Below are positions 28,662 through 52,991 of a stretch of 64,000 bases of DNA, piece after piece. Source of the DNA: Ensifer sp. LC163 (lineage in GTDB: Bacteria > Pseudomonadota > Alphaproteobacteria > Rhizobiales > Rhizobiaceae); contig NZ_MBSS01000019.1 of assembly GCF_001695855.1 (NCBI RefSeq), forward strand, positions 1 through 64,000, written 5' to 3'. The notes beneath the pieces were generated by a model. The model was not told the DNA's origin, made no database searches, and worked only from the letters and a program-made list of their open reading frames with translations. The translations under genes were made by a program, and so were the position numbers. Positions within the stretch are counted from its first letter, which is position 1. The number at the start of each line of letters is the position of its first letter.

Positions 28662-29531
28662 TCAGGCCTCGTCGGCAATCGGGTTGCGAAGCAGGCCGAT
28701 GCCATCGGCCTCGACCTCGACGACGTCGCCGGGTTTCAACCAGATCGGCGGGTCGAAGCGGGCGCCGGCCCCGGTCGGCGTTCCCGTCACGATCACGTCG
28801 CCGGGCACCAGCGTCGTGAAGGTCGAGACGTAGTTGATGATCTTGCGGAAGGAGAAGATCATCCGGCTGGTGCGGTCCTGCTGGCGGATTTCGCCGTTGA
28901 CGCGGGTCTCGAGCTTGATATCGGCGATCTGCGCTTCGTCGGTGAAGGGAACCAGCCATGGCCCGATCGACCCAGTGCGGTCGAAGTTCTTGCCCTGGGT
29001 GACGTTGAACTTGGCGTGTCGCACCCAGTCGCGGATCGTGCCTTCGTTAGAGAGCGAAAGTGCTGCGATGTGGTCGAGCGCCGAGGCTTCGGGAATGCGG
29101 CGGCCGGCCTTGCCGATGACGATGACGATCTCGCCCTCGTAGTCGAGCTGCGGGCTTTCGGGCGGGCGGATCAGCGGCTGATCGTGACCGGTGAAGGAAC
29201 GCGGAAAACGGATGAACAGCGACGGGTTGGACGGCGCTGCCTGGCCATCCCGATACTCTTCGTTGCGGTCGGGGAAATTGACGCCAACGCAGATGATCTT
29301 TTCCGGCGCGGGGATTGGGATTTCGAAGCGGGTATCGGCCAGCGACAAATCCGGGGTGAGGGCGAAGGACTCGTCTGCCAGTTTCGTGAGGGCGCCGTCG
29401 GCGATGACCTCGCGCAGCGTCGGCCATTTCGAGCCGTAGCGCCGAGATAGATCGACGATGCCGTGGTCGGTGACAAGACCATATCCCTTGCCGCGGGCCA
29501 CGGAAAAGGCGGCGAATTTCGCAAACGTCAT
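28662..29531 (-). CDS. hpaG: Fumarylacetoacetate-hydrolase-family decarboxylase/isomerase of the homoprotocatechuate pathway
   Basis: 289 aa, about two thirds of the fused E. coli HpaG. It has a short N-terminal cap and one FAH domain with V-G-V-N-F near residue 82, the metal ligands in L-D-Y-E-G-E-I-V-I-V-I-G-K, then F-T-D-E-A-Q, and G-T-P-T-G-A-G-A near the end. It should decarboxylate 5-oxo-pent-3-ene-1,2,5-tricarboxylate and isomerise the product to 2-oxohept-3-enedioate. Only one FAH-domain gene is present, so it must serve both activities or the second is done by HpaH or spontaneously. Confidence 0.88.
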   Translation of the reverse strand: MTFAKFAAFSVARGKGYGLVTDHGIVDLSRRYGSKWPTLREVIADGALTKLADESFALTPDLSLADTRFEIPIPAPEKIICVGVNFPDRNEEYRDGQAAPSNPSLFIRFPRSFTGHDQPLIRPPESPQLDYEGEIVIVIGKAGRRIPEASALDHIAALSLSNEGTIRDWVRHAKFNVTQGKNFDRTGSIGPWLVPFTDEAQIADIKLETRVNGEIRQQDRTSRMIFSFRKIINYVSTFTTLVPGDVIVTGTPTGAGARFDPPIWLKPGDVVEVEADGIGLLRNPIADEA

Positions 29532-29582: not shown

Positions 29583-31016
29583 TCATTGAATTTCCTGGTG
29601 CCGTGTTTCGAGCGCCATCTTCGCCGCGACCTCCGTTATGACATCGTAGGCGACATCGGCATCGTCCTCGGTCATGTCGAACTGACCGGCCTGGAAGCGG
29701 ATGGCGACGTGGCCGTCGACCCGTGTCTGGGTCAGGTAGATCCGGCCATCGTCGTTGATGGCATTGACCAGCGCGATGTTGTGGGCGTCGCTATCGGTGC
29801 CGCCGCGATGGCGGAACGAGAACAGCGAGAAGCGCGGAGCCGTGACGATTTCGAAGTTGTCGTGCGCACCAAGGCGCTCGGAAAGGTGCTTCGCCCAGGC
29901 GACATGGTTGCGGATCATCGTCTTCAATCCGTCTAGCCCGTGGAAGCGCAACAGGAACCATAATTTCAGCGCGCGGAAGCGTCGGCCGAGCGGGATGGTC
30001 CATTCGGAATAGTTGATGATGCCGTCGCGGCCGTGGGTCTTCAGATATTCCGGCTGGATCGCCAGCGTGCGGACGAGATCATCAGGATTGCGGATGAAAT
30101 GGGCGGAGCAGTCGAACTGGGCGCCCAGCCATTTGTGCGGGTTGAAGACGACCGAATCCGCCTCGTCGACGCCGGTCCAGAGCGGCCGGAATTCCTCGCA
30201 GATCATCGCCGATCCTGCCCATGCTGCGTCGACATGGACATAGAGGCCGTGCTTGTGGGCGACACGCACGACTTCGGCGATATCATCGCAGGCGCCCGTA
30301 CTGGTGCCGCCGGTGCAGGCGATGACGCCGGCCGGCAGAAGACCTGCGGCCCTATCCCTCAGAATTGCCGCTTCGAGTGCTTCGCAATCCATGGACTGCA
30401 GCGGTCCGGTCGCAAGTATGCGCACGAGGTTTTCCTCGCCGATGCCCGAGACCCAGATCGCCCGGTCGATCGAGGTGTGGACCTGGTCCGAGGAGTAGAT
30501 GCGCAACGGCGCGTGGACGCTGAGGCCCTGTTTGTTGCCCTTCCAGTTCAAGGCGCGCTCGCGCATGACGAGCACGGCGGACAGCGTGGCAGAGGAGGCC
30601 GAATCCTGGATGACGCCGGAAAAGCCGTCGGGAAGGCCGATCGCCTGGCGCAACCAGTCGAGAACCCTGGTTTCAAGCTCGGTGGCAGCGGGGGAGGTCT
30701 GCCATAGCATGCATTGGGCGGCCATCGCCGTCACCAGATATTCGGCAATGACGGAAACGGGGGCGGCGTTGGCCGGGAAATAGGCGAAGAAGCGCGGGTG
30801 CTGCCAATGGGTCATGCCCGGCAGGATGATGTTTTCGAAGTCCTCGAAGATCGCCTGCATGTCCTCGCCGGTCTGCGGCGGTCTGCTCGGGATCTGGGCG
30901 GCGATCGCGCCGGGTGCCGTCTGGGCGCGAACGGGCCTGTCGCGCAACGACGCGCGATAGGTTGATCCCCATTCCGCCGCCTTCTGCGACCATTCTCCAA
31001 AAGTCTTCTCGTCCAT
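29583..31016 (-). CDS. Aromatic-L-amino-acid decarboxylase (PLP group II)
   Basis: 477 aa, typical of the DOPA/tyrosine/tryptophan decarboxylase group. The PLP lysine is Lys295 in F-N-P-H-K-W. Earlier motifs include H-P-R-F-F-A-Y-F-P, T-S-P-A-A-T-E-L-E and V-H-V-D-A-A-W-A-G-S. It turns an aromatic amino acid such as tyrosine or DOPA into the amine (tyramine, dopamine). It lies inside the hpa operon between hpaD and hpaG (51 and 69 nt away), so its product is expected to feed the same pathway after deamination. GGGGAGGAACGG precedes the ATG. The substrate preference cannot be read from sequence. Confidence 0.88.
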   Translation of the reverse strand: MDEKTFGEWSQKAAEWGSTYRASLRDRPVRAQTAPGAIAAQIPSRPPQTGEDMQAIFEDFENIILPGMTHWQHPRFFAYFPANAAPVSVIAEYLVTAMAAQCMLWQTSPAATELETRVLDWLRQAIGLPDGFSGVIQDSASSATLSAVLVMRERALNWKGNKQGLSVHAPLRIYSSDQVHTSIDRAIWVSGIGEENLVRILATGPLQSMDCEALEAAILRDRAAGLLPAGVIACTGGTSTGACDDIAEVVRVAHKHGLYVHVDAAWAGSAMICEEFRPLWTGVDEADSVVFNPHKWLGAQFDCSAHFIRNPDDLVRTLAIQPEYLKTHGRDGIINYSEWTIPLGRRFRALKLWFLLRFHGLDGLKTMIRNHVAWAKHLSERLGAHDNFEIVTAPRFSLFSFRHRGGTDSDAHNIALVNAINDDGRIYLTQTRVDGHVAIRFQAGQFDMTEDDADVAYDVITEVAAKMALETRHQEIQ

Positions 31017-31085: not shown

Positions 31086-32066
31086 TTACGGGGCGATGAT
31101 AGGTTGTGCCTTCAGCACTGGTTCCACCGTCTCGGCTCCAGCAAATTGGCTGCCTTCCTCGAACCAGGAGCGTGGCGCAGGCGCGCCCCAGAGCGTCTGG
31201 CGCTGCGGGTCCTTGAGATCCCATTTGATCGGCTCGAGGTCGGGATCGACCGTCTGGTAGTCCGAGCAATAGATCTCGATGCGGTGGTTGTCGGGATCGC
31301 GGACATAGAGGAAGAAGGCATTGGAAATGCCATGGCGGCCGGGACCGCGCTCGATATTGGCAAGCCATCCCGAGGTCGACATCAGGTCGAGCAGGTCGAT
31401 GATGTTGAGCGGCGTCGGCACCCAGAAGGCGGTATGGTGCAGGCGCGGACCGCGACCATTGGTAAAGGCGATGTCGTGCACGCCGCCCTTGCGGTGGGTC
31501 CAGGCGGCCCAGAGCCGGCCGGTCTCTTCGTCAGCCGTGTACTCGGTAACCCGGAAGCCGATCTCGTTATAGAAGGCGACGGCGTCGTCGACATTGGGCG
31601 AGAAGCAGTTGAAATGGTCGATGCGCAGCGGCTTCACACCGCGATAGAGCGCGTATTTCTGATGGATCGGCGGCAGGCGGTCCATCTTCGAATAGAATTC
31701 CAATGGAATGCCCTGCGGATCGCGGGTGCGGAACGTGCGCGACTGATAGGGGCGCTCGATCCATTCGACCGGCAGCGCCTTCTGCTTGAAGAAATGCGCG
31801 GCCTTGTCGAGGTCCTCGTCGCCGAAGACCTTGAAGCCGAGATCGCGGGCCTCGGCAGTCGCTGCCTTCTTCAGCACGATGCAGTGATGGCCGCGTTCTT
31901 CCATGGCGCGCAGGTAGATCGTGTCGGCGGTCTCGTCGGTGACCTGCAGGCCCAGCACGTCGACATAGAAGGCGCGCGATTTGGCAAGATCGGTGACGGC
32001 GAGCTCGACATGGCTCAGCCGCACGATGTTGAACGGCGGGTGAAGGTTCGGTTTCGGTAAGGGCAT
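31086..32066 (-). CDS. hpaD: Homoprotocatechuate (3,4-dihydroxyphenylacetate) 2,3-dioxygenase
   Basis: 326 aa, type I extradiol dioxygenase of the VOC superfamily, like the Brevibacterium/Arthrobacter enzymes and unlike the LigB-type HpaD of E. coli. The metal triad is visible: His151 in I-D-H-F-N-C-F, His210 or His211 in R-L-H-H-T-A-F, Glu264 in H-R-I-E-I-Y. Two VOC modules (about 15-120 and 145-280) are present. It opens the ring of homoprotocatechuate between C2 and C3 using Fe2+ (or Mn2+). The gene lies between hpaE and the decarboxylase gene. Confidence 0.93.
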   Translation of the reverse strand: MPLPKPNLHPPFNIVRLSHVELAVTDLAKSRAFYVDVLGLQVTDETADTIYLRAMEERGHHCIVLKKAATAEARDLGFKVFGDEDLDKAAHFFKQKALPVEWIERPYQSRTFRTRDPQGIPLEFYSKMDRLPPIHQKYALYRGVKPLRIDHFNCFSPNVDDAVAFYNEIGFRVTEYTADEETGRLWAAWTHRKGGVHDIAFTNGRGPRLHHTAFWVPTPLNIIDLLDLMSTSGWLANIERGPGRHGISNAFFLYVRDPDNHRIEIYCSDYQTVDPDLEPIKWDLKDPQRQTLWGAPAPRSWFEEGSQFAGAETVEPVLKAQPIIAP

Positions 32067-32108: not shown

Positions 32109-33626
32109 TCAGCCGCCGAGCTTGGCGATCGCATGGGCCGAACTGGCAAACGCGATGTTCTTGGTTTCCATGTAAAAATCGAAGGACCAGTCGCCGCCGT
32201 CGCGGCCGATGCCGGAACTTTTGACGCCGCCGAAGGGCGCCGGCAGATGACGGACATTCTCCGAATTGACCCAGATCATCCCGGCTTCGAGGTGATCGGT
32301 GAAGCGGAAGGCGCGCGTGAGGTCGGAGGTCCAGAGATAGCCGGTGAGCCCGTATTGAACGTCGTTGGCCAGCGCCAGCGCCTCGGCCTCATCCTTGAAC
32401 GGAATGGCGGTCAGGACCGGCCCGAAGATTTCCTCCTGCGCGATCCGCATGGAATTGTTTGCGCCGGTAAAGAGCGTCGGCTGGACGTAACAGCCGCCAC
32501 CGGGACCTTCGAATTTCGCGCCGCCGGCGGCAACCGTCGCACCTTCCCTCTGGCCGATGCCGATATAGTCGAGCACCTTCTTTTCATGCTCCGGGTGGAT
32601 CAGCGGGCCTACGACGGTTTCAGGATCGAGCGGATGGCCGATCCTGATACGCTTGGCCTTTTCGGCAACCAGCGTAGTGAAGCGATCGTAGATGCTGCCT
32701 TCCACCAGCAGGCGCGAAGAGGAGGTGCAGCGTTCGCCGTTCAGCGAATAGATCATGAAGACCGCAGCGTCGGCCGCGCGCTCCAGATCGGCGTCGGCAA
32801 AGACGATGACCGGGTTCTTGCCGCCGAGTTCGAAATGCACCCGCTTCAGCGTGTCGGCGCCCTGTTTCATGATCAGCGAGCCCGTCCGGCTTTCGCCGAC
32901 GAAGCCGATCGCCTTGATGGCGGGATGCTCGGTCAGTGCCTTGCCTGCGTCCTCGCCGAAGCCGTTGACGAGGTTCCAGACTCCCTTGGGAAGGCCCGCT
33001 TCCTCGGCGATCTCGACGAGCAGGCGCGCCGTCAGCGGCGAGAATTCGGCCGGCTTATGGACGATGGTACAGCCGGCGGAGAGCGCCGGCGCGATCTTCC
33101 ACGTCGACAGCATGAACGGCGTGTTCCACGGCGTGATGATGCCGACCGGGCCGATCGGCACGCGCGTGGTCATGTTGATCTGGTTATCGCCGCGAAGCAC
33201 CTTGCCGTCGCGGGCCTCGGGGGCGCGATCGGCGAAGAAGCGAAAATTCTCCGCTCCGCGCAGAGCGGCCTTGGCCATGAACTTGAGCGACTGTCCGGTG
33301 TCCATGCATTCGACGAAGGCGATCTCTTCGGCGCGCGCGACGATGGCGTCGGCGATCTTGTGCAGGAGTTTTTTGCGCGCGTCGCCCGCCGTTGCTGCCC
33401 ACGCCGGGAAAGCTTCCCTTGCAGCGTGTGCGGCGCGATCGATATCGGTTGCCTTGCCGCGCGCGACCGTGGCAAGCGGCTTGAGGTCGACGGGAGAAAT
33501 CGTCTCGAAGCTGTCGCCGTCCAACGCCGGTACGGCTTGCCCGTTGATGTGGTTCAAGACCCCATGCGTGCGGAAGCGGGCGAGATAGGCTTCCGCCTTT
33601 GCGATGTTCTCATCGAGTCTGGACAT
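32109..33626 (-). CDS. hpaE: 5-carboxymethyl-2-hydroxymuconate semialdehyde dehydrogenase
   Basis: 505 aa from the ATG at 33626, which follows GGAGA; an upstream TTG in the same frame is not needed. It has the aldehyde dehydrogenase fold with catalytic Glu266 (F-E-L-G-G-K-N) and Cys300 (N-G-E-R-C-T-S-S-S-R), plus I-T-P-W-N-T-P-F-M-L as the cofactor motif. It oxidises the ring-cleavage product of HpaD with NAD+. It lies 42 nt before hpaD and 69 nt after hpaF. Confidence 0.93.
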   Translation of the reverse strand: MSRLDENIAKAEAYLARFRTHGVLNHINGQAVPALDGDSFETISPVDLKPLATVARGKATDIDRAAHAAREAFPAWAATAGDARKKLLHKIADAIVARAEEIAFVECMDTGQSLKFMAKAALRGAENFRFFADRAPEARDGKVLRGDNQINMTTRVPIGPVGIITPWNTPFMLSTWKIAPALSAGCTIVHKPAEFSPLTARLLVEIAEEAGLPKGVWNLVNGFGEDAGKALTEHPAIKAIGFVGESRTGSLIMKQGADTLKRVHFELGGKNPVIVFADADLERAADAAVFMIYSLNGERCTSSSRLLVEGSIYDRFTTLVAEKAKRIRIGHPLDPETVVGPLIHPEHEKKVLDYIGIGQREGATVAAGGAKFEGPGGGCYVQPTLFTGANNSMRIAQEEIFGPVLTAIPFKDEAEALALANDVQYGLTGYLWTSDLTRAFRFTDHLEAGMIWVNSENVRHLPAPFGGVKSSGIGRDGGDWSFDFYMETKNIAFASSAHAIAKLGG

Positions 33627-33695
33627 GTCATTCTCCAATCGTGGTGCGCTGCCGCTCGTGCGGGCGCAGAAACGTCGTGCCGACTTCTGTCGGTG

Positions 33696-34088
33696 TCAGT
33701 TGCCCTTCTGGCGAAGGCGTGGGTGGATCGCGTTCTTCTTCCAGCTGAGGTCCGGATCGATCTCGCGGATCTCCAGGCTGAGGGCGAAATGGGGCGTGTC
33801 GAAAAGGCTGGCGAGCTCTTGTGTGACGGCGTCGAAGATGGCCGCCCCGGTCGCCTGCTTTTCGGCGTCCGAGCGGCCACGGCCAATGCGGAACGACATG
33901 TCGATGAAGCTGTTCTGCGGCAAGAGATCGGCAATGGCATAATGGGCGCTGCGGACGGTACGGACGCGCACGGCGCCGATCTCGAAAAGGCCGGTGTCGA
34001 GGATGGTCTTGTGGATCGTGCGGCACAGGCGGTCGAAGTCGACGCGCTCGTCGAGATTGGCGGAGTGTTCGATCGTGAAGTGCGGCAT
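33696..34088 (-). CDS. hpaF: 5-carboxymethyl-2-hydroxymuconate delta-isomerase
   Basis: 130 aa, the length of HpaF (CHMI), a tautomerase-superfamily enzyme. The mature protein would begin with Pro2 (M-P-H-F-T-I-E-H), the catalytic base of this family. Other marks are H-Y-A-I-A-D, S-F-I-D-M-S-F-R-I-G-R-G-R and L-S-W-K-K-N near the end. It shifts the double bond of the HpaE product for the decarboxylation step. As the first gene of the operon it is divergent from hpaR, with a candidate operator 31-42 nt upstream. Confidence 0.92.
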   Translation of the reverse strand: MPHFTIEHSANLDERVDFDRLCRTIHKTILDTGLFEIGAVRVRTVRSAHYAIADLLPQNSFIDMSFRIGRGRSDAEKQATGAAIFDAVTQELASLFDTPHFALSLEIREIDPDLSWKKNAIHPRLRQKGN

Positions 34089-34220: not shown

Positions 34221-34691
34221 ATGAGCCGTGCGAAAACCCCCACCGAACTTGGGCCGGACGCCCTTCTTCCCCACAATACGCGTCGGTCGCTGCCGATCGC
34301 GCTCCTGCGCGCGCGCGAAGCGGTGATGGGGCATTTCCGGCCGATGCTGGCACGTCACGAAATCACCGAGCAGCAATGGCGCGTCATCAGGATCCTTGCC
34401 GAATCCGGCAAGGTCGATGCCTCCGAGATGGCCGACAAGGCCTTCATTCTGGCGCCGAGCCTGACGCGCATCATCCGGTCGCTTGAGGAGCGCGGGCTGA
34501 TCACCAAGCACAAGGACGCCGATGACGGGCGCCGGGTGCTTCTCGAGATCGCGCCCGCCGGCATGCGGGTCATCGCCGACGTCGGCCCGGAGAGCCGGGC
34601 GATCTACGACCAACTCGAGGCACGTTACGGCCACGAGCGCGTCGAGGTGCTGCTCGACATGCTGGACGAGCTCGCAACGCTCGGCGACTGA
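34221..34691 (+). CDS. hpaR: MarR family repressor of the homoprotocatechuate operon
   Basis: 156 aa. The winged helix-turn-helix includes the family's pattern E-Q-Q-W-R-V-I-R-I-L-A-E, S-L-T-R-I-I-R-S-L-E-E-R-G-L-I and K-D-A-D-D-G-R-R-V-L-L-E-I-A-P-A-G, matching HpaR (the motif T-R-I-I-R and the wing R-R). It is divergent from hpaF, as in other species, where it represses the pathway until a hydroxyphenylacetate ligand is present. It converges on the kinase gene, 17 nt apart. Confidence 0.9.
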   Translation: MSRAKTPTELGPDALLPHNTRRSLPIALLRAREAVMGHFRPMLARHEITEQQWRVIRILAESGKVDASEMADKAFILAPSLTRIIRSLEERGLITKHKDADDGRRVLLEIAPAGMRVIADVGPESRAIYDQLEARYGHERVEVLLDMLDELATLGD

Positions 34692-34708: not shown

Positions 34709-35722
34709 TCACGCGGGGACCGGTAGCGTTCCCGCAAAGAGCAGGGTTTCGTCCGCGTAGCGACGCAGGCGCGCCTCGGCGCCGGGAAGCTCCGGCCGCG
34801 CGGCAAACCAGCCGATGTAAGTGAGGCTCCGAAGCGTCATGAAAAGTGGCAGGGCCGAAAGTGCGGCATCGGGCAACGGACGCCTGCTTCTGTACCCCTC
34901 GATCAATGACCTTTCGATCGACGGGTAGGCCGGTTCGTTGCGGTTCTTGAGAAGCGCGGTCGCGATATCGAACAGGCGAAAGCCGAAACCCGCATCGTCG
35001 AAGTCGATGAACGCCACGCCGTCGTCACGAACCAGCACGTTCTCGCGCACGAGGTCGGCATGGATTAAGCCGTAGTCGAACGCGCCCGCCGGCACGTTTT
35101 CCAGACTGCTCCGAAGGCGATCACGCAGAATGCCGAGGCCACGCCTCTGTTCGGCCGACAGGCCCTCGCAGTCCCAGAAGCGACCCCAGACCGGGCTTTC
35201 GCCGAGCAGGCCCTCGGCGTCCCAGGCGGCACGTTTGAAGTCGTGCGGCATCGACCAGCGATCGGCAAGATTGTGCATGTAGGCCATCATGGCGCCAAGC
35301 GCATGAAAGATGGCGACCTGCCGCTCGCCGCTATGGGCGAGCGGAACACCGCTTTCACCAAGCGGCGCACCATGCATCCAGCTGACGATATCGGCATGCT
35401 GGCCCGCGCAATCGTCGGTCGCGTCGAGACGCACCAGAAGGCGGCCGTCCGGTGCCGCGATCGCGCTCGGCACCGCAAGGCCGCTGTCGCGCAGCGCCGT
35501 CATCCACTGCAGTTCCGAGCGCAGCGCGGACTCGTCATGATAACCCGGACGATGCAGTCGAAGCACTGCTGGCTCGCCATCGGCGAGCGTGATCCGGAAG
35601 ACGGCGTTCTCGCGATATTTCAGCAACATCGGCTTCGCGTTCTCAAGTCCCCAATGGGCGACGGCTTCTCGCGCGCGGGCTTCGAGTGCTTCCAGGAGAC
35701 GTTGCGGCAGATGCTCGGCCAT
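34709..35722 (-). CDS. APH-fold small-molecule kinase, partner of an aminotransferase-like phospho-lyase
   Basis: 337 aa in the aminoglycoside phosphotransferase/homoserine-kinase-like group. N-terminal lobe: E-N-A-V-F-R-I, A-V-L-R-L-H-R-P. Catalytic loop: H-A-D-L-V-R-E-N at 221-228. Metal loop: F-I-D-F-D-D-A-G near 240. The closest arrangement known to me is the hydroxylysine-kinase-like family, which phosphorylates an amino alcohol. It is the last gene of a six-gene operon and lies 7 nt after a phospho-lyase-type class III aminotransferase gene. Together these may phosphorylate a beta-hydroxy amine and then eliminate phosphate and ammonia. The substrate is unknown; antibiotic resistance is unlikely in this setting. 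Confidence 0.82.
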   Translation of the reverse strand: MAEHLPQRLLEALEARAREAVAHWGLENAKPMLLKYRENAVFRITLADGEPAVLRLHRPGYHDESALRSELQWMTALRDSGLAVPSAIAAPDGRLLVRLDATDDCAGQHADIVSWMHGAPLGESGVPLAHSGERQVAIFHALGAMMAYMHNLADRWSMPHDFKRAAWDAEGLLGESPVWGRFWDCEGLSAEQRRGLGILRDRLRSSLENVPAGAFDYGLIHADLVRENVLVRDDGVAFIDFDDAGFGFRLFDIATALLKNRNEPAYPSIERSLIEGYRSRRPLPDAALSALPLFMTLRSLTYIGWFAARPELPGAEARLRRYADETLLFAGTLPVPA

Positions 35723-35729
35723 GGCCTGC

Positions 35730-37013
35730 TCACAGGCCCGACAAAACGTCGTCGAGGGTCGACAGCATCAGGTCGGCGTTCTCCCGGGAGAACGGCATGG
35801 GCGGACGGATCTTCGTCGTGCATTGGTGAATGCCGAGCTTGCCCATCAGCACGCCGCGCTCGCGCATGTCGTTGATAACCTTGGTGGCAAGATCGGCAGC
35901 CGGCGCCTTCCGGTCCCGGTCGAGCACAAGCTCTGCCCCGAAAAACAATCCGCTGCCGCGCACGTCGCCGATGATGTCGTGCTTGTCCCTGAGCCTGTCG
36001 ATGCCTGCCTTGGCATAGGCGCCGACCTCGCGGGCGTTGTCGACCAGCTTTTCCTCGTCGATGACGTCGAGCACGGCCATCGCCGCGGCGCAGGAGACCG
36101 GATTGCCGCCGAAGGTGTTGAAGTAGCGGAAGGCCTTGCGAAAGGCGTTCAGTGTCTCGCTGCCGGCAACGACACCGCCGATCGGATGGCCGTTGCCCAT
36201 CGGCTTACCCAAGGTGACGATATCGGGAACGATGCCGGCCTTCTGGTGGCCCCACATGTGCCCGCCCGTGCGGCCGAAGCCGGGTTGGACCTCGTCGGCG
36301 ATCACCACGCCACCGGCTTTCCGCACGACCGCAACGGTTGCGTCGAGGAAGCCCTGGGGCAAATCGGGAAAACCTTCATTGGCGAAGAACGGGTCGATGA
36401 TCAGCGTGGAAAAGCCAAACGGGCTTTCCTGCAGCTCGGCGATCGCCCCTTCCACCTCGGCCGCAAACGCGATCGAAAAGGCCTCGCCGGGAACGCCGCC
36501 GAGCGGCCGATAGCTGTCGGGTGCCGGCACGTGCCGCACATGGCCGCCAAACCCGCCGACCGGCGGCATCCGGGTAGAAAGCTGGGAAACGGCGGCGGTA
36601 TTGCCGTGATAGGTGTGATCGGTTGCGATCACCCCGGTCTTGCCGGTGACCGCCTGAGCCATCCGCAGCGCAATGTCGTTGGCCTCGCTGCCGGTGCAGG
36701 TCAGGATAGCCGTGTCGAGGCTATGGTCAAACGTCGCCGTCAGCCGCTCGACATAGTCGAGAATACCTTCATGCAGGTAGCGCGTGTGGGTGTTCAGCGT
36801 TGACGCCTGCCGGGCGATCGCCTCGACCACGCGCGGATGGCAGTGGCCGACATGCGGCACATTGTTGTAGCAGTCGAGATAGCGTCTGCCGTCGGCGTCC
36901 CAGAGCCAGACGCCTTCCCCCCGCACGATATGCACCGGGTCGCTGTAAAACAGCGACATGTTCTTGCCGAGCAGCCGTTCGCGGCGTGCCAGCAGCGCTG
37001 CGGTGTCGCTCAT
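35730..37013 (-). CDS. Class III aminotransferase-fold phospho-lyase (AGXT2L1/ethanolamine-phosphate phospho-lyase-like)
   Basis: 427 aa. Sequence blocks agree closely with eukaryotic AGXT2L1/AGXT2L2: C-Y-N-N-V-P-H-V-G-H-C-H-P, L-N-T-H-T-R-Y-L-H, L-G-K-P-M-G-N-G-H-P, Y-F-N-T-F-G-G-N-P-V-S-C and K-I-R-P-P-M-P-F. The PLP lysine is Lys270. Family members split O-phosphoethanolamine or 5-phosphohydroxylysine into an aldehyde, ammonia and phosphate. Its kinase neighbour would supply the phosphorylated substrate. It sits 1 nt from the upstream aminotransferase gene. In this aromatic island a phospho-octopamine-like substrate giving 4-hydroxyphenylacetaldehyde is plausible but unproven. Confidence 0.85.
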   Translation of the reverse strand: MSDTAALLARRERLLGKNMSLFYSDPVHIVRGEGVWLWDADGRRYLDCYNNVPHVGHCHPRVVEAIARQASTLNTHTRYLHEGILDYVERLTATFDHSLDTAILTCTGSEANDIALRMAQAVTGKTGVIATDHTYHGNTAAVSQLSTRMPPVGGFGGHVRHVPAPDSYRPLGGVPGEAFSIAFAAEVEGAIAELQESPFGFSTLIIDPFFANEGFPDLPQGFLDATVAVVRKAGGVVIADEVQPGFGRTGGHMWGHQKAGIVPDIVTLGKPMGNGHPIGGVVAGSETLNAFRKAFRYFNTFGGNPVSCAAAMAVLDVIDEEKLVDNAREVGAYAKAGIDRLRDKHDIIGDVRGSGLFFGAELVLDRDRKAPAADLATKVINDMRERGVLMGKLGIHQCTTKIRPPMPFSRENADLMLSTLDDVLSGL

Positions 37014-37014
37014 G

Positions 37015-38373
37015 TTATTTGCCCTCGGCAGCGCTCAGGCCCGAATCCAGGGCCGAAAGAATGCGCGAGACATCCTCGGCGGCGATGACGAGTGGCGGTG
37101 ACAGGATCACGTTCGGGCCGGATGTGCGGACCATGACGCCTGCCTCATAGGCAACATCCTGGACCTTCTGCACCACGTCCTTCGCAGCGGGCGACTTCTT
37201 CTCGCGATCCGATACAAGCTCAAGCGCGCACATCAGGCCCTTGCCGCGCACATCGCCGACGAGCTCGTGACTCGCTTTTAGTGCCTGTAGGCCCGCCATC
37301 AGCTCCTCGCCGCGCGCGCCGGCATTGGCCGCGACATCGAGGCGTTTCGTTTCCTTGAGCGTGGCAAGGGCCGCGGCAGCGCCGACCGGATGACCGGAAT
37401 AGGTGTAGCCATGGCCGATCGAGCCGGCAGCCGTCCTGTTGGTTTCGAAAGCCTCGGCGACCTTGTCCGAGATCATCACCGCGCCGAAGGGGTAATAGCC
37501 GTTGGTGATCGCCTTGGCGGTCGACATCAGATCCGGCTTGACGCCCCAGAGGCGCGAACCGGTCCAGGCGCCGGTGCGGCCGAAGGCGGTGATCACCTCG
37601 TCGGCAATCAGCAGAATGCCGTGACGGTCGCAGATGTCGCGCATCAGCGGCATGAAGGTTTCGTGCGGTACGATCACGCCGCCGGCACCAAGAACCGGCT
37701 CCATGATCAACGCAGCGATGGTGTCGGCGCCCTGGAAGGCGATCTCTTCTTCGAAGAGGCGGGCAATGCCCCTGGTGATTTCGGCGCCGTCCGTCGTCGT
37801 GAACGGGTTGCGGTAGGTGTAGGGGGCGGGCAGGTGAAAGACGCCCGGCAGCAGCGGCTCGTAGTTGCGGCGGAAATTGGCGTTGCCGTTGACCGACGCG
37901 CCGCCGAAATGCGTGCCGTGATAGCCCTTCTTCAGCGCGACGAACTTCGTGCGTTCCGGCTGGCCGTTGAGCTTGTGGTACTGGCGGGCGAGACGAAGGC
38001 AGGTCTCGACCGAATCCGATCCGCCCGAGGTGAAGAACGAGCGACTGAGGCCATCCTCCTTGAACCATTCGGCAAGTTCGTAGGAAAGCTCGATGAGCGG
38101 CGAATTGGTGGTGCCGCGGAAGGTCGAGTAATAGGGCAGGTCGTCGAGCTGATCGCGGATCGCCTTCTTCACCGGCTCGCAGGAATAGCCGAGATTGACA
38201 TTCCACAGGCCGCCGACCGCATCGAGAACCTTCTTGCCGTGGACGTCGACGATCTCCACGCCTTCGCCGGTATTGATGATGCGCGGCGGCGTCGCGTGCA
38301 TTTCGGCGGGGTGCGCCATCGGATGCCACAGGTGGCGGGCATTGTTCTCGATGAGGAAGTTGGTTTCGCGCAT
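37015..38373 (-). CDS. Class III omega-aminotransferase
   Basis: 452 aa, the length of amine/beta-alanine:pyruvate transaminases. The PLP lysine is Lys287 in S-T-A-K-A-I-T-N-G-Y-Y-P. Other marks are F-T-S-G-G-S-D-S-V-E-T, K-K-G-Y-H-G-T, L-I-A-D-E-V-I-T-A-F-G-R-T-G and G-Y-T-Y-S-G-H-P. It probably deaminates a primary amine (tyramine or dopamine would fit the island) to the aldehyde with pyruvate as acceptor. It shares an operon with the phospho-lyase, which has the same fold but belongs to a different subfamily, so the two are not duplicates of one function. Confidence 0.88.
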   Translation of the reverse strand: MRETNFLIENNARHLWHPMAHPAEMHATPPRIINTGEGVEIVDVHGKKVLDAVGGLWNVNLGYSCEPVKKAIRDQLDDLPYYSTFRGTTNSPLIELSYELAEWFKEDGLSRSFFTSGGSDSVETCLRLARQYHKLNGQPERTKFVALKKGYHGTHFGGASVNGNANFRRNYEPLLPGVFHLPAPYTYRNPFTTTDGAEITRGIARLFEEEIAFQGADTIAALIMEPVLGAGGVIVPHETFMPLMRDICDRHGILLIADEVITAFGRTGAWTGSRLWGVKPDLMSTAKAITNGYYPFGAVMISDKVAEAFETNRTAAGSIGHGYTYSGHPVGAAAALATLKETKRLDVAANAGARGEELMAGLQALKASHELVGDVRGKGLMCALELVSDREKKSPAAKDVVQKVQDVAYEAGVMVRTSGPNVILSPPLVIAAEDVSRILSALDSGLSAAEGK

Positions 38374-38391: not shown

Positions 38392-39039
38392 TCAAATGCC
38401 GAGCATCCGGAGGGCTCTGGCGTAGCTTTCTGCGGGTCTGATGACATCGAAATGCACGTTGGGCAGAGACACTGCCTCGGCGCCCTCGATGTTCTTCTTC
38501 TGGTCGTCGACGAAGACGCAGGCCTCCCGCGGCAGGTCGAGTTCGGAAAGCACGACTTCGTAGGCCTGCGGATCCGGCTTCAATATTCCGGTGTAGGTGG
38601 CATCGACGATGACGTCGAAAAGCTCGATGAGCGGGAAGCGTTTGCGAAACTCCACGCCGTAGAAGAGGTCGAGTTCGTTGGAAAGAATGGCGAGCCTGAT
38701 GCCGGCATCCTTTGCCCGCAGGATCGCATCGCGCGCTTCCGGGCGCAGCACCAGTTCTGGTTCGGCGCCGCGGGCACGCTGGACGAAGGTCTTCATATCC
38801 GTCCAGTCCTCGCCGACGAGGTGCCCGACCTCGCGGGTGCGCTTCGTCCAATAGTCACGTTCGGTAATCTCACGCTTTTGCATCGACACCCAGAGCGGAT
38901 CGGAAGCCGTGTCGAACGGCCCCCGCCAGGTCAGGCTGCCTGGGGCAAGGCCGAGCGCGCGCTCGGTGACGTCGTGGGTTTCGAACAGCGTGCGGGTGAC
39001 GACGCCGCCGAAGTCGAGGATGAGGGCGCGATCCGTCAC
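38392..39039 (-). CDS. HAD-IA family hydrolase
   Basis: 215 aa from the GTG at 39039, which overlaps the stop of the UPF0261 gene in a GTGA motif. HAD motifs: D-F-G-G-V-V-T (motif I with one Asp and Gly where the usual second Asp stands), S-N-E (motif II Ser region), K-P-D-P (motif III Lys), V-D-D-Q (motif IV). The missing second Asp of D-x-D is typical of dehalogenase/epoxide-hydrolase-like members, so it may not be a phosphatase. It is translationally coupled to its neighbour in the amine operon. The substrate is unknown. Confidence 0.82.
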   Translation of the reverse strand: MTDRALILDFGGVVTRTLFETHDVTERALGLAPGSLTWRGPFDTASDPLWVSMQKREITERDYWTKRTREVGHLVGEDWTDMKTFVQRARGAEPELVLRPEARDAILRAKDAGIRLAILSNELDLFYGVEFRKRFPLIELFDVIVDATYTGILKPDPQAYEVVLSELDLPREACVFVDDQKKNIEGAEAVSLPNVHFDVIRPAESYARALRMLGI

Positions 39040-40289
39040 GGGCGGCCTCCCGGGATGATGCCACGTGCGATCCAATCGTCGAAGATGGCGAGCGCCTTTG
39101 CCGAGAACTCCGGTGCGTTGATGTGGCTGTCGATCTCGTGAAGGTGGACCGACGCCGGCACGGCGCGGCGCATCTCATCGATGAAGGCGTCGAGCGCCTC
39201 CGGTTCGTGCAGCGGCTCTTCCGGCTTGTCCCATTCCTGAATGCCCTTGAGCGGCAGGATGAAGGCGACTTCGGCGCTGGTGTCGGCGAGCTTGCCGCCG
39301 ATGATGCGGGCGATCTCGCGCCGCCCTTCCGGCGATGTCGTCACCGAACCGAGCAGCCGGTTGTGAGCGTGATAGGGCCGGTCGGCGAAGGCCGCGGGCA
39401 GTGCCTGCCATGCGGGCAGGTCCACCATGTCGATCGCTCCTGGTGCTACAAGCTGCGGAATTCCGGCGCGCCCGGCATTTTCCAGCCGGTCGGGCCCGGA
39501 GGTGACGACCGTGCCGTGGTGATGGTTGCTGACCTCCTGAATGCAGAAGTCGAAGACGGCGGTAAAGCCGTTCTGTGCAGCGATTGCCTCGAAGGCACGG
39601 CCACCCATTCCGGTCGCGTGAAACACCGCGACGTCATAGCCCCGTCGTTCCAGTTCAGGCTTCAGGTACTTCATGTATTTGAGGCAGCTCGACCCGAGCG
39701 AGGTCATGCCGATCAGCGGCCGCTCCTTGTCCGGCTTGGTGCCGAAACGGGCCGCGCCGACCACTGCGCCGCAGGCCTGCGACAGCACCGATCGGCAGAT
39801 GCCGTTGAGGCCGTATAGCCCGCCCGCCCAAAGGATCATCATCAGATCAGGCGCGATGCGCTCCGGCGGCAGCAGGTGCGAATAGGCGATGGTCGAGACG
39901 ACGAATTTCGGCACGCCGAGCGGCAGGGCTGCCGCGACATCGAGTGCCAGATCGGTGCCCATCGAACCGCCAAGGATGATGACGCCATCTGCCTGCCCTG
40001 CGTCATGGAGGGTGCGGGAAAGAGTTGCGGCCCCTTTGGCCATCAGCGCCATCGCGCTGTTTTCGTCGCCGCTCGCGGCAATCGCTACGATCGACGTGCC
40101 GGCCGCCTCGGCGATATCGTGACGCGAATACTCCGGCGCATAGGGCGGATCACCGAGGATGCTGACGTCCATCATGACAGGCAGGCCGCCGGCCTCCCGG
40201 ATGACCGACGCCATGAATTGTAGCTCTTCGCATTTCGTGTCTCCCGTTCCCACCACGAGGATATTGGGTAGACGGTTCATCGCATTCAT
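39036..40289 (-). CDS. Tm-1-like ATP-binding domain (UPF0261) protein
   Basis: 417 aa, the full size of the UPF0261 family. Marks: V-V-G-T-G-D-T-K near the start, V-I-I-L-G-G-S-M-G-T-D-L-A-L, and F-H-A-T-G-M-G-G-R-A-F-E near the middle. In tomato Tm-1 this domain binds ATP; bacterial members usually pair with a TIM-barrel partner, which is not seen here. Its start overlaps the IclR stop (TGATG) and its end overlaps the HAD gene. The function in the operon is unknown. Confidence 0.85.
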   Translation of the reverse strand: MNAMNRLPNILVVGTGDTKCEELQFMASVIREAGGLPVMMDVSILGDPPYAPEYSRHDIAEAAGTSIVAIAASGDENSAMALMAKGAATLSRTLHDAGQADGVIILGGSMGTDLALDVAAALPLGVPKFVVSTIAYSHLLPPERIAPDLMMILWAGGLYGLNGICRSVLSQACGAVVGAARFGTKPDKERPLIGMTSLGSSCLKYMKYLKPELERRGYDVAVFHATGMGGRAFEAIAAQNGFTAVFDFCIQEVSNHHHGTVVTSGPDRLENAGRAGIPQLVAPGAIDMVDLPAWQALPAAFADRPYHAHNRLLGSVTTSPEGRREIARIIGGKLADTSAEVAFILPLKGIQEWDKPEEPLHEPEALDAFIDEMRRAVPASVHLHEIDSHINAPEFSAKALAIFDDWIARGIIPGGRP

Positions 40290-41071
40290 CAGCCGGCCCT
40301 CCTTGCCAGCGGATTGGCAGTCGCTTGCTCCAACCCAAAGAATTTCTCAGAAATGCGTTTGGCGATCGCTGCCGTTGCCGGACCGAGTTCAGCGATCGTC
40401 TCCGCATTGGCGCGCACCTGCGGTGCCGCGACGGCGATCGCGCCGATCGGCACGCTGTTCGGCGCGCGGATGGGGGCGGCGACGCTGATGACGCCGCTTT
40501 CAAGCCCCTGCTGGCTGATCGAATAGCCGCGGTGCGCCGTCTCCGTGAGCAGACGGCGAAGCTCGGTCCTCGACGTGATCGTGTGCTCGGTGAATGCTTC
40601 GAGCGGCATGGACAGCGCATCTTCGACCTGCCTTGCCGGGCAGAAGGCGAGGAAGGCGTGGCCTGATGCTGTCGCGTGGAACGGCAGCGTGCTTCCGACA
40701 TCGACGATGACCCGATGCGCGCGCGGTGAATCTTCCACGTGAACAGTCGAGAGCCGGCCGGCGACGAATTCCGAGAGATGCACGGTCTCGCCTGATGTGC
40801 TGGCAAGCTCCTTTACGAACGGAATGGCGACACTGAGAAAGGGGAACCGTGCCTCCCGGATGCGAGCAAGCCGGACCGGCGCGCCGCCGATGCGATAGCG
40901 TTTGGTGTCCGGATCCTGTTCGACGAAGCCATGCCTTTCAAGCTCGACGAGAAAGCGTCGCGCCGTCGCCTTGTCGAGCGCGCAATGCCTGGCGATGTCG
41001 CTCAAGCCCACTTCCTTGTCCAGCCGCGAGATCGCGTCCAACAGGGTCAGTGCCTTACCGATGGTGCTCAT
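40289..41071 (-). CDS. IclR family transcriptional regulator
   Basis: 260 aa from the ATG at 41071, preceded by GGAGGA. The N-terminal winged helix has D-I-A-R-H-C-A-L-D-K-A-T-A-R-R and the C-terminal IclR effector domain shows H-A-T-A-S-G-H-A-F-L-A-F and then G-Y-S-I-S-Q-Q-G-L-E-S-G-V-I-S-V-A-A-P-I, typical for the family. It is the first gene of the six-gene amine operon and divergent from the APC permease gene, so it likely controls both directions in response to an aromatic or amine ligand. Confidence 0.9.
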   Translation of the reverse strand: MSTIGKALTLLDAISRLDKEVGLSDIARHCALDKATARRFLVELERHGFVEQDPDTKRYRIGGAPVRLARIREARFPFLSVAIPFVKELASTSGETVHLSEFVAGRLSTVHVEDSPRAHRVIVDVGSTLPFHATASGHAFLAFCPARQVEDALSMPLEAFTEHTITSRTELRRLLTETAHRGYSISQQGLESGVISVAAPIRAPNSVPIGAIAVAAPQVRANAETIAELGPATAAIAKRISEKFFGLEQATANPLARRAG

Positions 41072-41378
41072 CCAGTCCTCCGTCGCCGAGCGCCGCTGCC
41101 AGTGATCCCGATGCCCGTTCCCTTGATTTCCAGGCGGTTTGACCACCCGTATCGCGTTTTATCCGGCCGAGATACTTAACATGCGAAATAACTTGACAGG
41201 TCGCCGTGCCATTTGCAAGTCTATATTTGAAGCAACGGTTTGAATATTGAACCGACTACTGCGCGCGACCAAGAACAAAAAGCAACGTGGCCGGCAGCAG
41301 CTTCGCGGAGGACGCCTTTGGAGAGATGGACCTGAGGCAAAAGGCAAACATTGCCAAGAAAAGGGGAGCTAAGAAGCT
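41072..41378. promoter_or_regulatory. Divergent control region between the IclR operon and the permease gene
   Basis: A TTGACA at 41193-41198 on the + strand lacks a -10 box at normal spacing (TATATT at 41222-41227 is 23 nt away). CGGTTTGAATATTGAACCG at 41236-41254 has 5-bp inverted arms around an AT-rich centre and could be a regulator site. No gene is seen. Confidence 0.35.
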
Positions 41379-42830
41379 ATGGACAATCATTCGTCGCCCG
41401 TGACCGGCGTGAACCAATTGCGCAAGAACGCGCTTGGGGTCGGCGCCGTCACGTTTCTCGTCGTATCGGCTGCCGCACCGCTGACGGCGGTTGCCGGTGG
41501 TGTTCCGCTGTCGATGATGCTCGGAAACGGCGCCGGTATTCCCGGCACCTTCCTGCTCGTCACGCTGATCCTGCTGCTGTTTTCCGTCGGTTATGTCGCC
41601 ATGGCGCGGCACATCCGCAACGCCGGCGCCTTCTACGCCTATACGGCCCAAGGCCTCGGTGGGTTGATGGGTGGTGCCGCGGCGATGATTGCCATCCTTG
41701 CCTATAACGCCATGCAGATCGGTGTCTTCGGCCTGTTCGGCGCGGCAACCGCGGGGCTTTTTGCCGGGCTTGGTATCGACCTGCCCTGGTGGGTGTGGAC
41801 CTTTATCGGCATCGCGATCGTCGGCGTTCTCGGTTATCGCCGCGTCGACCTGTCGGCCAAGGTGCTGACCGTGCTGGTCATTCTCGAATATCTTGTCGTG
41901 CTGGTCATCGACGTTGCGATCATCGCCAAGGGTGGCGACAGCGGCCTGACGATGACCTCCTTCACGCCGTCTGCTCTGATGTCCGGTTCTCCCTCGATCG
42001 GCATCCTGTTCTGCTTTGCGGCCTTCATCGGCTTTGAAGCGACGACGATCTACAGCGAGGAAGCCCGCGATCCGCACACAACCGTGCCGCGCGCGACCTA
42101 TATCTCCGTGCTGATCATCGGCGTTTTCTACATGCTGACATCCTGGCTGATGGTGAATGCGGCGGGTGCCGACAAGTTGGTGCCGGAACTGCAGGGTCTT
42201 GCCGATCCGACGACCTTCCTCTTCGGCCTGGCGGAGCGTTATGCCGGCGGCTGGCTGCCGCCGATCATGAACGTGCTTTTCGTCACCAGCCTGTTTGCCG
42301 GCGTGCTGGCGTTCCACAACGGCGTCGCCCGGTATCTCTATGTCGCCGGCCGCGAGCGCCTGCTGCCGGCCTCGATCGGCGTCACTCATCCCGTCTATCA
42401 TAGCCCGCATGCCGGCTCGGTCATTCAGACGATCACTGCCGCCCTCGTCGTTGCGCTGTTTGCGGCAACAGGACAGGATCCGGTGCTGGCGCTGTTCTCC
42501 TGGCTGACCAATGTCGGCACGCTTGCCGTCATGGTGCTGATGGCGTTTACCGCCTTTGCCATCGTCGCCTTCTTCAATCGCAATCCGGGGCTGGAATCGA
42601 ACACGCTCGTGACAAAGATCATCCCGGTCATCACCGGCGTCATCCTGATTGCGGTGATCATTGCCATTGCCGTCAACTTCGGCGACCTCGCCGGCGCCAC
42701 CGGTCTGCTCGCCGTCTTCCTGCCGGGACTCGTGGTGATTGCCGGCGTCATCGGCCTTGCGTTGGCGGCTATGCTCAAATCGGGCCGTCCGCTGGAGTTC
42801 GCGCGGCTTGGCGCCGGCCAGGAGATCTGA
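41379..42830 (+). CDS. APC family amino acid/amine permease
   Basis: 483 aa with about 12 hydrophobic helices. The first helix carries F-L-V-V-S-A-A-A-P-L-T, the conserved broken helix of the APC superfamily. F-I-G-F-E-A-T-T-I-Y-S-E-E in helix 6 is the substrate-binding turn of amino acid permeases (F-x-G-F-E). It imports an amino acid or amine through the inner membrane by proton symport. It is divergent from IclR and precedes the aldehyde dehydrogenase gene by 59 nt, which points to uptake of the substrate for this pathway. Confidence 0.9.
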   Translation: MDNHSSPVTGVNQLRKNALGVGAVTFLVVSAAAPLTAVAGGVPLSMMLGNGAGIPGTFLLVTLILLLFSVGYVAMARHIRNAGAFYAYTAQGLGGLMGGAAAMIAILAYNAMQIGVFGLFGAATAGLFAGLGIDLPWWVWTFIGIAIVGVLGYRRVDLSAKVLTVLVILEYLVVLVIDVAIIAKGGDSGLTMTSFTPSALMSGSPSIGILFCFAAFIGFEATTIYSEEARDPHTTVPRATYISVLIIGVFYMLTSWLMVNAAGADKLVPELQGLADPTTFLFGLAERYAGGWLPPIMNVLFVTSLFAGVLAFHNGVARYLYVAGRERLLPASIGVTHPVYHSPHAGSVIQTITAALVVALFAATGQDPVLALFSWLTNVGTLAVMVLMAFTAFAIVAFFNRNPGLESNTLVTKIIPVITGVILIAVIIAIAVNFGDLAGATGLLAVFLPGLVVIAGVIGLALAAMLKSGRPLEFARLGAGQEI

Positions 42831-42889: not shown

Positions 42890-44368
42890 ATGCAGGAAAA
42901 AATCGACCAGTTGCGCCGCAATGTGGTGCCGCCGCAAAAACTCTTCATCGGCGGCAATTGGCGTGAGGCCCGGTCCGGCAGGACGCTCGATGTCATCTCG
43001 CCGATCGACGGGACGCGGCTGACGACCATCGCCGATGCCGGCGTTGACGACGTTGATGTCGCTGCGTCTGCAGCCCGGGCGGCCTTCGAGACAGGCAAGT
43101 GGTCGAAGGCGGCGCCGGCGGAGCGCAAGAAAGTGCTTCTGCGCGTGGCCGAACTCATCGAGAAGAACGCTCTCGAGCTTGCGGTTCTCGGCGTGCGCGA
43201 CAATGGTACCGAGATTTCGATGGCGCTGAAGGCGGAGCCGGGCAGCGCCGCCGGCACCTTCCGCTACTATGCCGAGGCGATCGACAAGATCTATGGCGAG
43301 ATCGCGCCGACCGCAGGCAACGTGCTCGGCCTTGTGCATCGCGAGTCGGTCGGCATCGTCGCCGCCATCGTTCCCTGGAATTTTCCGCTGATGATCGGCG
43401 CCTGGAAGATCGCACCGGCGCTTGCCGCCGGAAACTCGGTCATCCTGAAGCCGGCCGAGGGCGCATCGCTGACCCTGTTGCGGCTGGCCGAACTCTGTGC
43501 CGAGGCCGGGCTGCCCGAGGGCGTGCTGAACGTCGTGACGGGGAGGGGCGCCATGACAGGCGAGGCGATCGGTCTCCATGCCGATATCGACGTGCTCGCC
43601 TTCACCGGTTCGGGCGGCGTCGGGCGTCGGCTGCTGGAATATTCGGCGCGCTCCAACCTCAAACGCGTCTATCTGGAACTGGGTGGCAAGTCGCCCAACA
43701 TCGTCTTTGCCGATGCGCCGGATTTGGACCAGGCGGCCAAGGTGTCTGCCTATGGCATCTTCCGCAACTCCGGCCAGGTCTGCGTCGCCGGCTCGCGCCT
43801 GCTGGTCGAGCGGTCCATCCACGAAGCATTCGCCGAGAAGGTTGCCGCGATCGCGGCAAACATAAAGGTGGGCGATCCTCTGTTGCTGTCGGCGGAAGCC
43901 GGCGCGATCTCCAGCCAAATCCAGCTCGAAAAAAACCTCGGCTTCGTCGAGCAGGCAGTCAACGAAGGCGCGCGGCTGAGGACCGGCGGCAAGCGCATCC
44001 TCGAAGACACCGGTGGCTTCTACATGCAGCCGACGATCTTCGACGTCGAGCCCGACATGAGCCTCGCCAAAGAAGAAGTCTTCGGCCCGATCCTCTCGAT
44101 CATCCCCTTCGAAGATGAGGCCGATGCGCTGGGCATCGCCAATGGAACCGTATACGGGCTTGCATCGGCGGTCTGGACCGCGAACCTCTCGCGGGCGCAT
44201 CGCATGGTGCGCTCCATCCGGGCCGGCGTCGTGCACGTCAACACCTATGGTGGCGCCGACAACACGGTGCCGCTTGGCGGGGTGAAGCAATCGGGCAATG
44301 GTCACGACAAGTCCCTGCATGCGCTCGACAAATACACCGACCTGAAGACCGCCTGGATCCAGCTCTGA
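42890..44368 (+). CDS. NAD(P)-dependent aldehyde dehydrogenase
   Basis: 492 aa, typical of the betaine-/phenylacet-/gamma-aminobutyraldehyde dehydrogenase group. Glu263 in L-E-L-G-G-K-S and Cys298 in G-Q-V-C-V-A-G are the catalytic pair; I-V-P-W-N-F-P-L is the cofactor motif. It probably oxidises the aldehyde made by the amine-removing enzymes (for instance 4-hydroxyphenylacetaldehyde to 4-hydroxyphenylacetate). It forms a unit with the permease gene, ends in a strong terminator, and converges on hpaC. Confidence 0.9.
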   Translation: MQEKIDQLRRNVVPPQKLFIGGNWREARSGRTLDVISPIDGTRLTTIADAGVDDVDVAASAARAAFETGKWSKAAPAERKKVLLRVAELIEKNALELAVLGVRDNGTEISMALKAEPGSAAGTFRYYAEAIDKIYGEIAPTAGNVLGLVHRESVGIVAAIVPWNFPLMIGAWKIAPALAAGNSVILKPAEGASLTLLRLAELCAEAGLPEGVLNVVTGRGAMTGEAIGLHADIDVLAFTGSGGVGRRLLEYSARSNLKRVYLELGGKSPNIVFADAPDLDQAAKVSAYGIFRNSGQVCVAGSRLLVERSIHEAFAEKVAAIAANIKVGDPLLLSAEAGAISSQIQLEKNLGFVEQAVNEGARLRTGGKRILEDTGGFYMQPTIFDVEPDMSLAKEEVFGPILSIIPFEDEADALGIANGTVYGLASAVWTANLSRAHRMVRSIRAGVVHVNTYGGADNTVPLGGVKQSGNGHDKSLHALDKYTDLKTAWIQL

Positions 44369-44954: not shown

Positions 44955-44964
44955 GGCGATCGCC

Positions 44965-46527: not shown

Positions 46528-46622
46528 GGTTCTCCTCCTTGAATTTCGTCAAGACTAGGCATTGATTGTCGAGGCTGCCATGGACAGAATGACAAAATGA
46601 CTTGCACTTTTTCGGGTGGTTC

Positions 46623-51245: not shown

Positions 51246-52991
<1,746 letters not shown>

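Follow-up and report, generated by a model that had tools for sequence, protein, structure and literature searches.

The window analysed here, 64,000 nucleotides of Ensifer sp. LC163 (contig NZ_MBSS01000019.1), encodes an APH-fold small-molecule kinase and, next to it, a class-III protein that we predict to be a pyridoxal phosphate (PLP)-dependent phospho-lyase, both set among hpa genes. Judging from gene content and protein comparisons, we consider it likely that the two would act together as a two-step deamination unit for beta-hydroxylated arylethylamines (octopamine, noradrenaline, phenylethanolamine). This would probably extend a known type of enzyme pair to a new branch of substrates.

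The kinase and its class-III partner

The two genes lie on the minus strand, where the class-III gene (35730..37013) is followed after 7 nt (35723-35729, from the open reading frame (ORF) coordinates) by the kinase gene (34709..35722). A sequence-only reading of this DNA had placed a kinase 7 nt after a class-III protein with characteristic blocks, and coordinates, strand, blocks and Pfam folds all agree with it. The kinase matches the Pfam family APH (PF01636; E=1e-23) and its translation contains the motifs HADLVREN and FIDFDD; across an alignment of 24 sequences H221, D223, N228 and D240-D243 (HxDxxxxN and DFDD) are invariant. The class-III protein matches Aminotran_3 (PF00202; E=1.1e-73) and carries the AGXT2L-type blocks NNVPHVGHCHP, GKPMGNGHP and NTFGGNPVSC. 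Its residues Lys270, the presumed PLP lysine of the class-III fold, and Asp240 are invariant in an alignment of 18 sequences.

Against solved proteins, bit scores place the class-III protein closer to characterised phospho-lyases than to transaminases: phospholyase 5g4i scores 411 bits and ethanolamine-phosphate phospho-lyase 6tor 351 bits, and the third-best relative, dialkylglycine decarboxylase, only 203 bits. Identity with another class-III lyase, PbfA, was ruled out by profile (NF049939, 213 bits against a cut-off of 525). The best solved match of the kinase is 6ef6 (4.7e-50; the runner-up reaches 6.5e-15), whose database name is merely 'Aminoglycoside phosphotransferase' and which we take to be the 1-amino-2-propanol kinase of a mycobacterial microcompartment. 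This corrects the sequence-only reading, which had named hydroxylysine and ethanolamine kinases as the models. Profile and solved-relative matches also agree with the description of the pair as flanked by hpa genes, an aromatic decarboxylase, a permease and an aldehyde dehydrogenase.

The pair recurs beside hpa genes in related genomes

A kinase scan of a genome collection returned 54 loci. Setting aside the remote L083-L085 left 51 close-relative loci (L032-L082; kinase at least 40% identical). A locus counted as linked if its examined stretch included any of hpaD, E, F, G and H, and 35 of the 51 did so. The arrangement of the pair with hpa genes is therefore not due to chance, and the linkage to aromatic genes that the sequence-only reading had proposed to look for across genomes is present in several lineages. 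An accident of one clade was ruled out by these several lineages and by the two arylacetate pathways involved (see below). Kinase and hpaF occur together in 46 of 109 loci, and in 23 of these 46 they share a strand with at most 57 bp between the kinase stop and the hpaF start, making a single transcript likely. The window and the Ensifer loci closest to it have hpaR between the two genes.

The association also appears at the level of whole genomes. Among 151 sampled genomes of the window's family, 28 have the kinase (E<=1e-30) and 34 have HpaD (E<=1e-100). Kinase scores were divided into a high group (at least 213 bits) and a low group (at most 164 bits), a split chosen after the gap had been seen and later returned by the kinase tree. 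HpaD was present in 13 of the 14 genomes with a high-scoring kinase, or 12 of 13 once the window's own genome, chosen for having both, is removed. The corresponding figure was 21 of the remaining 137 genomes (Fisher 5.6e-9, own genome included; this, like the other Fisher values given here, overstates certainty because related genomes are not independent, and the case is weaker to that extent). Where the high-scoring kinase lies away from HpaD, 6 of 7 genomes still have it (Fisher 1.6e-4), and among the genomes with low-scoring kinases only, HpaD was found in 1 of 14. A second set comprised 16 genomes from the kinase loci, 14 with the kinase away from hpaD-H and 2 with linkage, the genomes of L063 and L073 being left out. 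All 16 contain HpaD (77-91% identity); the 14 whose examined stretch shows no hpaD-H linkage of the kinase encode it elsewhere in the genome, to be compared with the 34 of 151 genomes that have HpaD in the family sample. These 14 include three Ruegeria relatives of the L079 type.

The window kinase belongs to an hpa-associated clade

A kinase tree of 120 rows, rooted at its midpoint so that its clades A and B are the two sides of one branch, placed the window kinase in clade A (85 rows) and both 6ef6 and the kinase of A. fabrum C58 in clade B (35 rows). A row counted as linked in this tree if its locus had a match of at least 55% identity to hpaB, D, E, F, G, H or R, to hpcB or to hpcD; by this label, linked rows numbered 53 in clade A and zero in clade B. 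The window kinase did not group with 6ef6 here or in a smaller, more careful tree of 43 rows, in which clade A (28 rows, with the window and without 6ef6) had 100/100 support. Counting the genome samples only, hpaD-H were linked in 8 of 22 clade-A loci as against 0 of 33 clade-B loci (Fisher 2.6e-4). Of 23 genomes tested from a phylum-wide sample, 9 have a clade-A kinase, and HpaD was found in 4 of them (two belonging to the window's own family); the other 14 have only kinases of clade B, and HpaD was found in 1.

The clade-A members that lie beside hpa genes come from Rhizobiaceae, Labrys, Roseobacters, Sphingobium and the actinobacterium Paenarthrobacter. Comparison of 47 hpa-linked with 35 clade-B kinases revealed 25 positions that consistently differ, some of them in the catalytic loop (V225, R226, E227). 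The sister kinase/lyase type of clade B is itself widespread (L096, L139, L143, L167 and similar loci), often with a short-chain dehydrogenase/reductase (SDR) gene nearby.

A second arylacetate pathway beside the pair in some relatives

We also inspected 20 annotated plasmid records, picked for diversity and not at random, 16 of which have clade-A kinases. Nine of these 16 carry hpa-type genes, one paa genes and one a tyramine oxidase, and five show nothing clear. Hpa-type genes lie near the pair in Rhizobium CIAT894, Agrobacterium leguminum and A. tumefaciens CFBP7129; in Ruegeria conchae, Ruegeria THAF33, Phaeobacter porticola and Pseudosulfitobacter the pair is found with hpaR, hpaF or hpaE and with other transporters, and in Sphingobium TomTYG72 near a homoprotocatechuate dioxygenase annotated hpcB. 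Kinase and class-III gene are adjacent in 15 of the 16 records, a regulator lying between them in Paenarthrobacter aurescens TC1; the class-III partner in Pseudomonas MPC6 is a distant relative of the window lyase (28%). The stretches of the four records with kinases outside clade A (Acinetobacter, A. fabrum C58, S. meliloti and Klebsiella) were free of hpa and paa genes. The last gene of the A. fabrum C58 stretch belongs to the tannase/feruloyl-esterase family.

The TC1 record (plasmid pTC2; L090 / L183) combines the kinase with a phenylacetaldehyde dehydrogenase, hpaI, a hydratase, hpaE and a copper amine oxidase. Its protein AAur_pTC20101 aligns with the crystallised phospholyase 5g4i over 446/446 residues without a difference. 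This setting of the 5g4i gene, an hpa/feaB/amine-oxidase island that also includes a kinase, suggests that phosphoethanolamine is not its enzyme's natural substrate.

In Mesorhizobium AR07 the gene order is TetR regulator, APC permease, lyase, kinase, paaX, pcaF, paaABCDE, another phenylacetate gene and paaZ. A locus from another family of the phylum (L128) has paaA, C, D, E and Z, each scoring over its curated cut-off, followed by permease, lyase and kinase. Within that second proteobacterial family the lyase was found (E<=1e-150) in 23 of 198 sampled genomes, and 7 of the 21 loci examined, from 20 of these genomes, carry paa markers (L128, L186, L190, L192, L193, L195 and L197; the only marker in L195 is paaZ, at a distance of 7 kb). 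Phyllobacterium zundukense has an annotated tyramine oxidase and an aldehyde dehydrogenase next to the pair and a permease. These paa-gene and tyramine-oxidase settings also point to arylethylamines. Because the hpa and paa pathways both begin at arylacetic acids, an arylacetaldehyde product formed from a beta-hydroxy-arylethylamine would be the simplest single explanation for the two settings.

The operon and its surroundings

The sequence-only reading had treated the two genes as a unit; they do belong together, and the unit is larger, since they are the last two genes of a six-gene operon on the minus strand. Its order is IclR, UPF0261, HAD hydrolase, omega-transaminase, lyase and kinase. 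The first gene encodes an IclR-family regulator (40289..41146, from profile matches) that is found in many relatives' loci. Its best match is BhcR, below the cut-off; the module at the Ruegeria locus L079 (1-4500) adjoins genes that by eye resemble those of the beta-hydroxyaspartate cycle. Next come a UPF0261/Tm-1-like protein (39036..40289; Pfam, NCBIfam NF002676 above cut-off, solved relatives 9mpy and Tm-1) and an HAD-IA hydrolase (38392..39075; Pfam Hydrolase, 4.8e-19). Both genes stay with the pair in many Rhizobiaceae loci, and the UPF0261 gene is near it in several Roseobacters too; we know of no role for either protein in amine breakdown. As a guess, the hydrolase might serve as a phosphatase of unused phospho-amine. 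The omega-transaminase (37015..38373), a second class-III aminotransferase assigned to subfamily PRK07481 above cut-off, is retained alongside the pair in many loci.

Divergently from the operon, on the plus strand, run genes for an APC amino acid/amine permease (41379..42830; Pfam AA_permease_2), also found in many relatives' loci, and an aldehyde dehydrogenase (42890..44368, from profiles). The best solved relative of the latter is KauB and the second a gamma-glutamyl-gamma-aminobutyraldehyde dehydrogenase; we propose that it may be an arylacetaldehyde dehydrogenase. Beyond it lie a flavin reductase (44442..45044, minus; Pfam Flavin_Reduct, 4.9e-37) with a proposed HpaC role, whose true start is probably inside this ORF, an HpaB-type oxygenase of 4-hydroxyphenylacetate 3-monooxygenase (44965..46527, minus; TIGR02310, 754 bits against a cut-off of 885; Pfam HpaB_N and HpaB) and an AraC-type regulator resembling HpaA (46602..47504, plus; TIGR02297, 146 bits, below cut-off).

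Downstream of the pair, the MarR-type regulator HpaR (34221..34691, plus; TIGR02337) is convergent with it. There follow on the minus strand an HpaF-type isomerase (33696..34088; NF011605, 85 bits, below cut-off, and position), the dehydrogenase HpaE (32109..33638; TIGR02299), homoprotocatechuate 2,3-dioxygenase HpaD (31086..32066; TIGR02295), an aromatic L-amino acid decarboxylase (29583..31016), an HpaG-like protein of the fumarylacetoacetate-hydrolase family (28662..29531; TIGR02303, 161 bits, below cut-off), the hydratase HpaH (27855..28658; TIGR02312) and the aldolase HpaI (27030..27845; TIGR02311). HpaI, HpaH, HpaD, HpaE and HpaR pass the curated cut-offs; HpaB, HpaF, HpaG and HpaA are named after their best-matching families, with scores under them. 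The decarboxylase is of the DOPA/tyrosine type (DOPA decarboxylase 7xin, 6.8e-112; tyrosine decarboxylase 6eei, 7.4e-97). Its slot between hpaD and hpaG is taken in L086, L089 and L098 by a gabD-annotated dehydrogenase, and in six Shinella loci (L062, L063, L066, L069, L071 and L072) the decarboxylase lies beside the module instead. To the right of the island, genes for a GGDEF-type sensor protein-like product (48918-50408) and a gamma-glutamyltransferase-like product (51078-52991) were recognised by eye.

A proposed route from aryl-ethanolamines to the hpa pathway

We propose that the APC permease would import the amine, and that the kinase would transfer phosphate from ATP to the hydroxyl on the side chain of octopamine or noradrenaline, or of phenylethanolamine in the paa-linked relatives. 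Phosphorylation of the hydroxyl is suggested by the kinase fold, its motif and its partner gene. The PLP phospho-lyase would then eliminate phosphate, and the resulting enamine or imine would yield ammonia and (4-hydroxy- or 3,4-dihydroxy-)phenylacetaldehyde, an outcome to which the closeness of the lyase to known phospho-lyases points. Formation of these aldehydes from octopamine, noradrenaline or similar amines is what the sequence-only reading had suggested, and the genome comparisons support it. The aldehyde dehydrogenase might oxidise this arylacetaldehyde to the arylacetate, from which HpaBC would lead to homoprotocatechuate and HpaD-E-F-G-H-I would open and degrade the ring; HpaBC and HpaD-I form an established pathway.

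The omega-transaminase would probably take the non-hydroxylated amines (tyramine, dopamine), which the decarboxylase could also supply from tyrosine or DOPA. A genome search found no copper amine oxidase in the window's own genome, so that tyramine-type amines may be left to the omega-transaminase. From PLP chemistry, synephrine and other secondary amines are expected to require prior demethylation.

Weighing the alternatives

Several observations weigh against this scheme. Sixteen of the 51 close-relative loci lack hpaD-H in the stretch examined (L055, L060, L062, L063, L066-L069, L071-L073, L076, L077 and L079-L081), L060 having hpaR only and L073 being merely a 4.2-kb piece. Similarly, 14 of the 21 second-family loci have no paa markers, one of them (L184) covering just 4.6 kb, and the L128 permease resembles an ethanolamine permease. 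No arylacetaldehyde enzyme, by name, is among the best solved relatives of the aldehyde dehydrogenase. In a Rhodobacterales subgroup of clade A no aromatic genes could be recognised by eye near the pair in L133 and L136, no aromatic marker matches were obtained in L134 and L137, and HpaD was absent from the subgroup's four sampled genomes; clade membership by itself was rejected as proof of function on account of this subgroup. The Paracoccus locus L092 is similar, with no aromatic catabolic genes by annotation, and the records of R. pomeroyi, Gemmobacter, Pseudomonas MPC6 and Leisingera showed no clear aromatic genes within 9-12 kb, although in R. pomeroyi and Leisingera an aldehyde dehydrogenase and a class-III aminotransferase are retained alongside the pair. 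Given these loci without aromatic neighbours, not every clade-A pair need use aromatic amines.

Such loci and the L128 permease, together with the presumed identity of 6ef6, the nearest solved kinase, and the name of 6tor, would suit a pair that breaks down a simple amino alcohol (ethanolamine or 1-amino-2-propanol) to acetaldehyde or propionaldehyde, its hpa setting being incidental. We regard this as unlikely, however, since the window kinase belongs to the 100/100-supported group that leaves out 6ef6, and hpa, paa and tyramine-oxidase settings recur. The close, same-strand placement of kinase and hpaF in 23 of 46 loci and the presence of HpaD in all 14 genomes tested with the kinase away from hpaD-H argue in the same direction.

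The substrate might instead be another beta-hydroxy aromatic amine, for instance one made by decarboxylation of phenylserine, dihydroxyphenylserine or a similar beta-hydroxylated aromatic amino acid, or a plant phenylethanolamine, as the DOPA/tyrosine-type decarboxylase in the window's hpa row and beside the module in the six Shinella loci would suggest. We hold this to be very unlikely, as most of the stretches from the 51 close relatives contain no such decarboxylase, although the idea is a neighbour of the deamination that we favour and not its opposite. Finally, it seems most improbable that the class-III protein transaminates aromatic amines (e.g. tyramine) and that the kinase has an unrelated substrate: public records do label the protein 'aspartate aminotransferase family protein', and a second class-III enzyme in the operon shows the fold to be common here, but the protein is far nearer to phospho-lyases, its blocks are common to 5g4i and 6tor, and the kinase adjoins the class-III gene in 15 of 16 clade-A records.

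Returning to the deamination of beta-hydroxylated arylethylamines, we see the chances as evenly balanced that it reflects a general bacterial aryl-ethanolamine route, in which phosphorylation by ATP and phospho-elimination would deliver arylacetaldehydes into the hpa or paa pathways. If correct, the proposal would give the crystallised phospholyase 5g4i a role, its natural substrate being an O-phospho-aryl-ethanolamine and not phosphoethanolamine, and would add the neuro-active aromatic amines octopamine and noradrenaline to the ethanolamine, hydroxylysine and aminopropanol for which kinase and phospho-lyase chemistry is known. It would also provide a genetic basis for the conversion of octopamine to 4-hydroxyphenylacetaldehyde, an activity not known to have an assigned gene, account for the retention of the pair with hpa or paa genes in plant-associated and marine bacteria, and tie the UPF0261/Tm-1-like protein and the HAD hydrolase to aromatic amine catabolism.

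Comparison with known systems

The octopamine hydro-lyase of Pseudomonas aeruginosa and the synephrinase of Arthrobacter (EC 4.2.1.87/88) are described as single enzymes that work without ATP; they achieve the same net conversion to 4-hydroxyphenylacetaldehyde, and we know of no gene for either. The design of a kinase with a phospho-lyase is known for hydroxylysine, ethanolamine and amino alcohols. The window lyase shares the class-III fold, the signature blocks and a score of 351 bits with the ethanolamine-phosphate and 5-phosphohydroxylysine phospho-lyases (6tor); unlike these, it is bacterial, lies in an aromatic gene island and has a proposed aromatic substrate. The 6ef6 kinase resembles the window kinase in its APH fold (4.7e-50) and, by the activity proposed here, in phosphorylating a beta-hydroxyamine before elimination, but the main split of the kinase tree separates the two, 6ef6 lying in the clade with hpa linkage in 0 of 33 sample loci.

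A kinase partner is known for hydroxylysine, going by the title of Veiga-da-Cunha 2012 as cited in PMC8154272. A kinase/phospho-lyase route for aromatic amines did not appear in the titles and abstract openings returned by searches of openly licensed PubMed Central papers, which is weak evidence of absence; octopamine is mentioned as a substrate of engineered HpaBC (PMC10816480). PbfA, described in PMC8154272 as (R)-1-hydroxy-2-aminoethylphosphonate ammonia-lyase, is likewise a class-III-fold lyase acting on a beta-hydroxyamine, but releases water and not phosphate. The nearest counterpart among solved proteins is the phospholyase of P. aurescens TC1 (5g4i/5g4j), the best solved relative of the window lyase (45% identity), with a related kinase and an hpa/feaB/amine-oxidase island. 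The TC1 system differs in its regulators and in a nearby SDR gene, and its kinase is long-branched and weakly placed within the clade.

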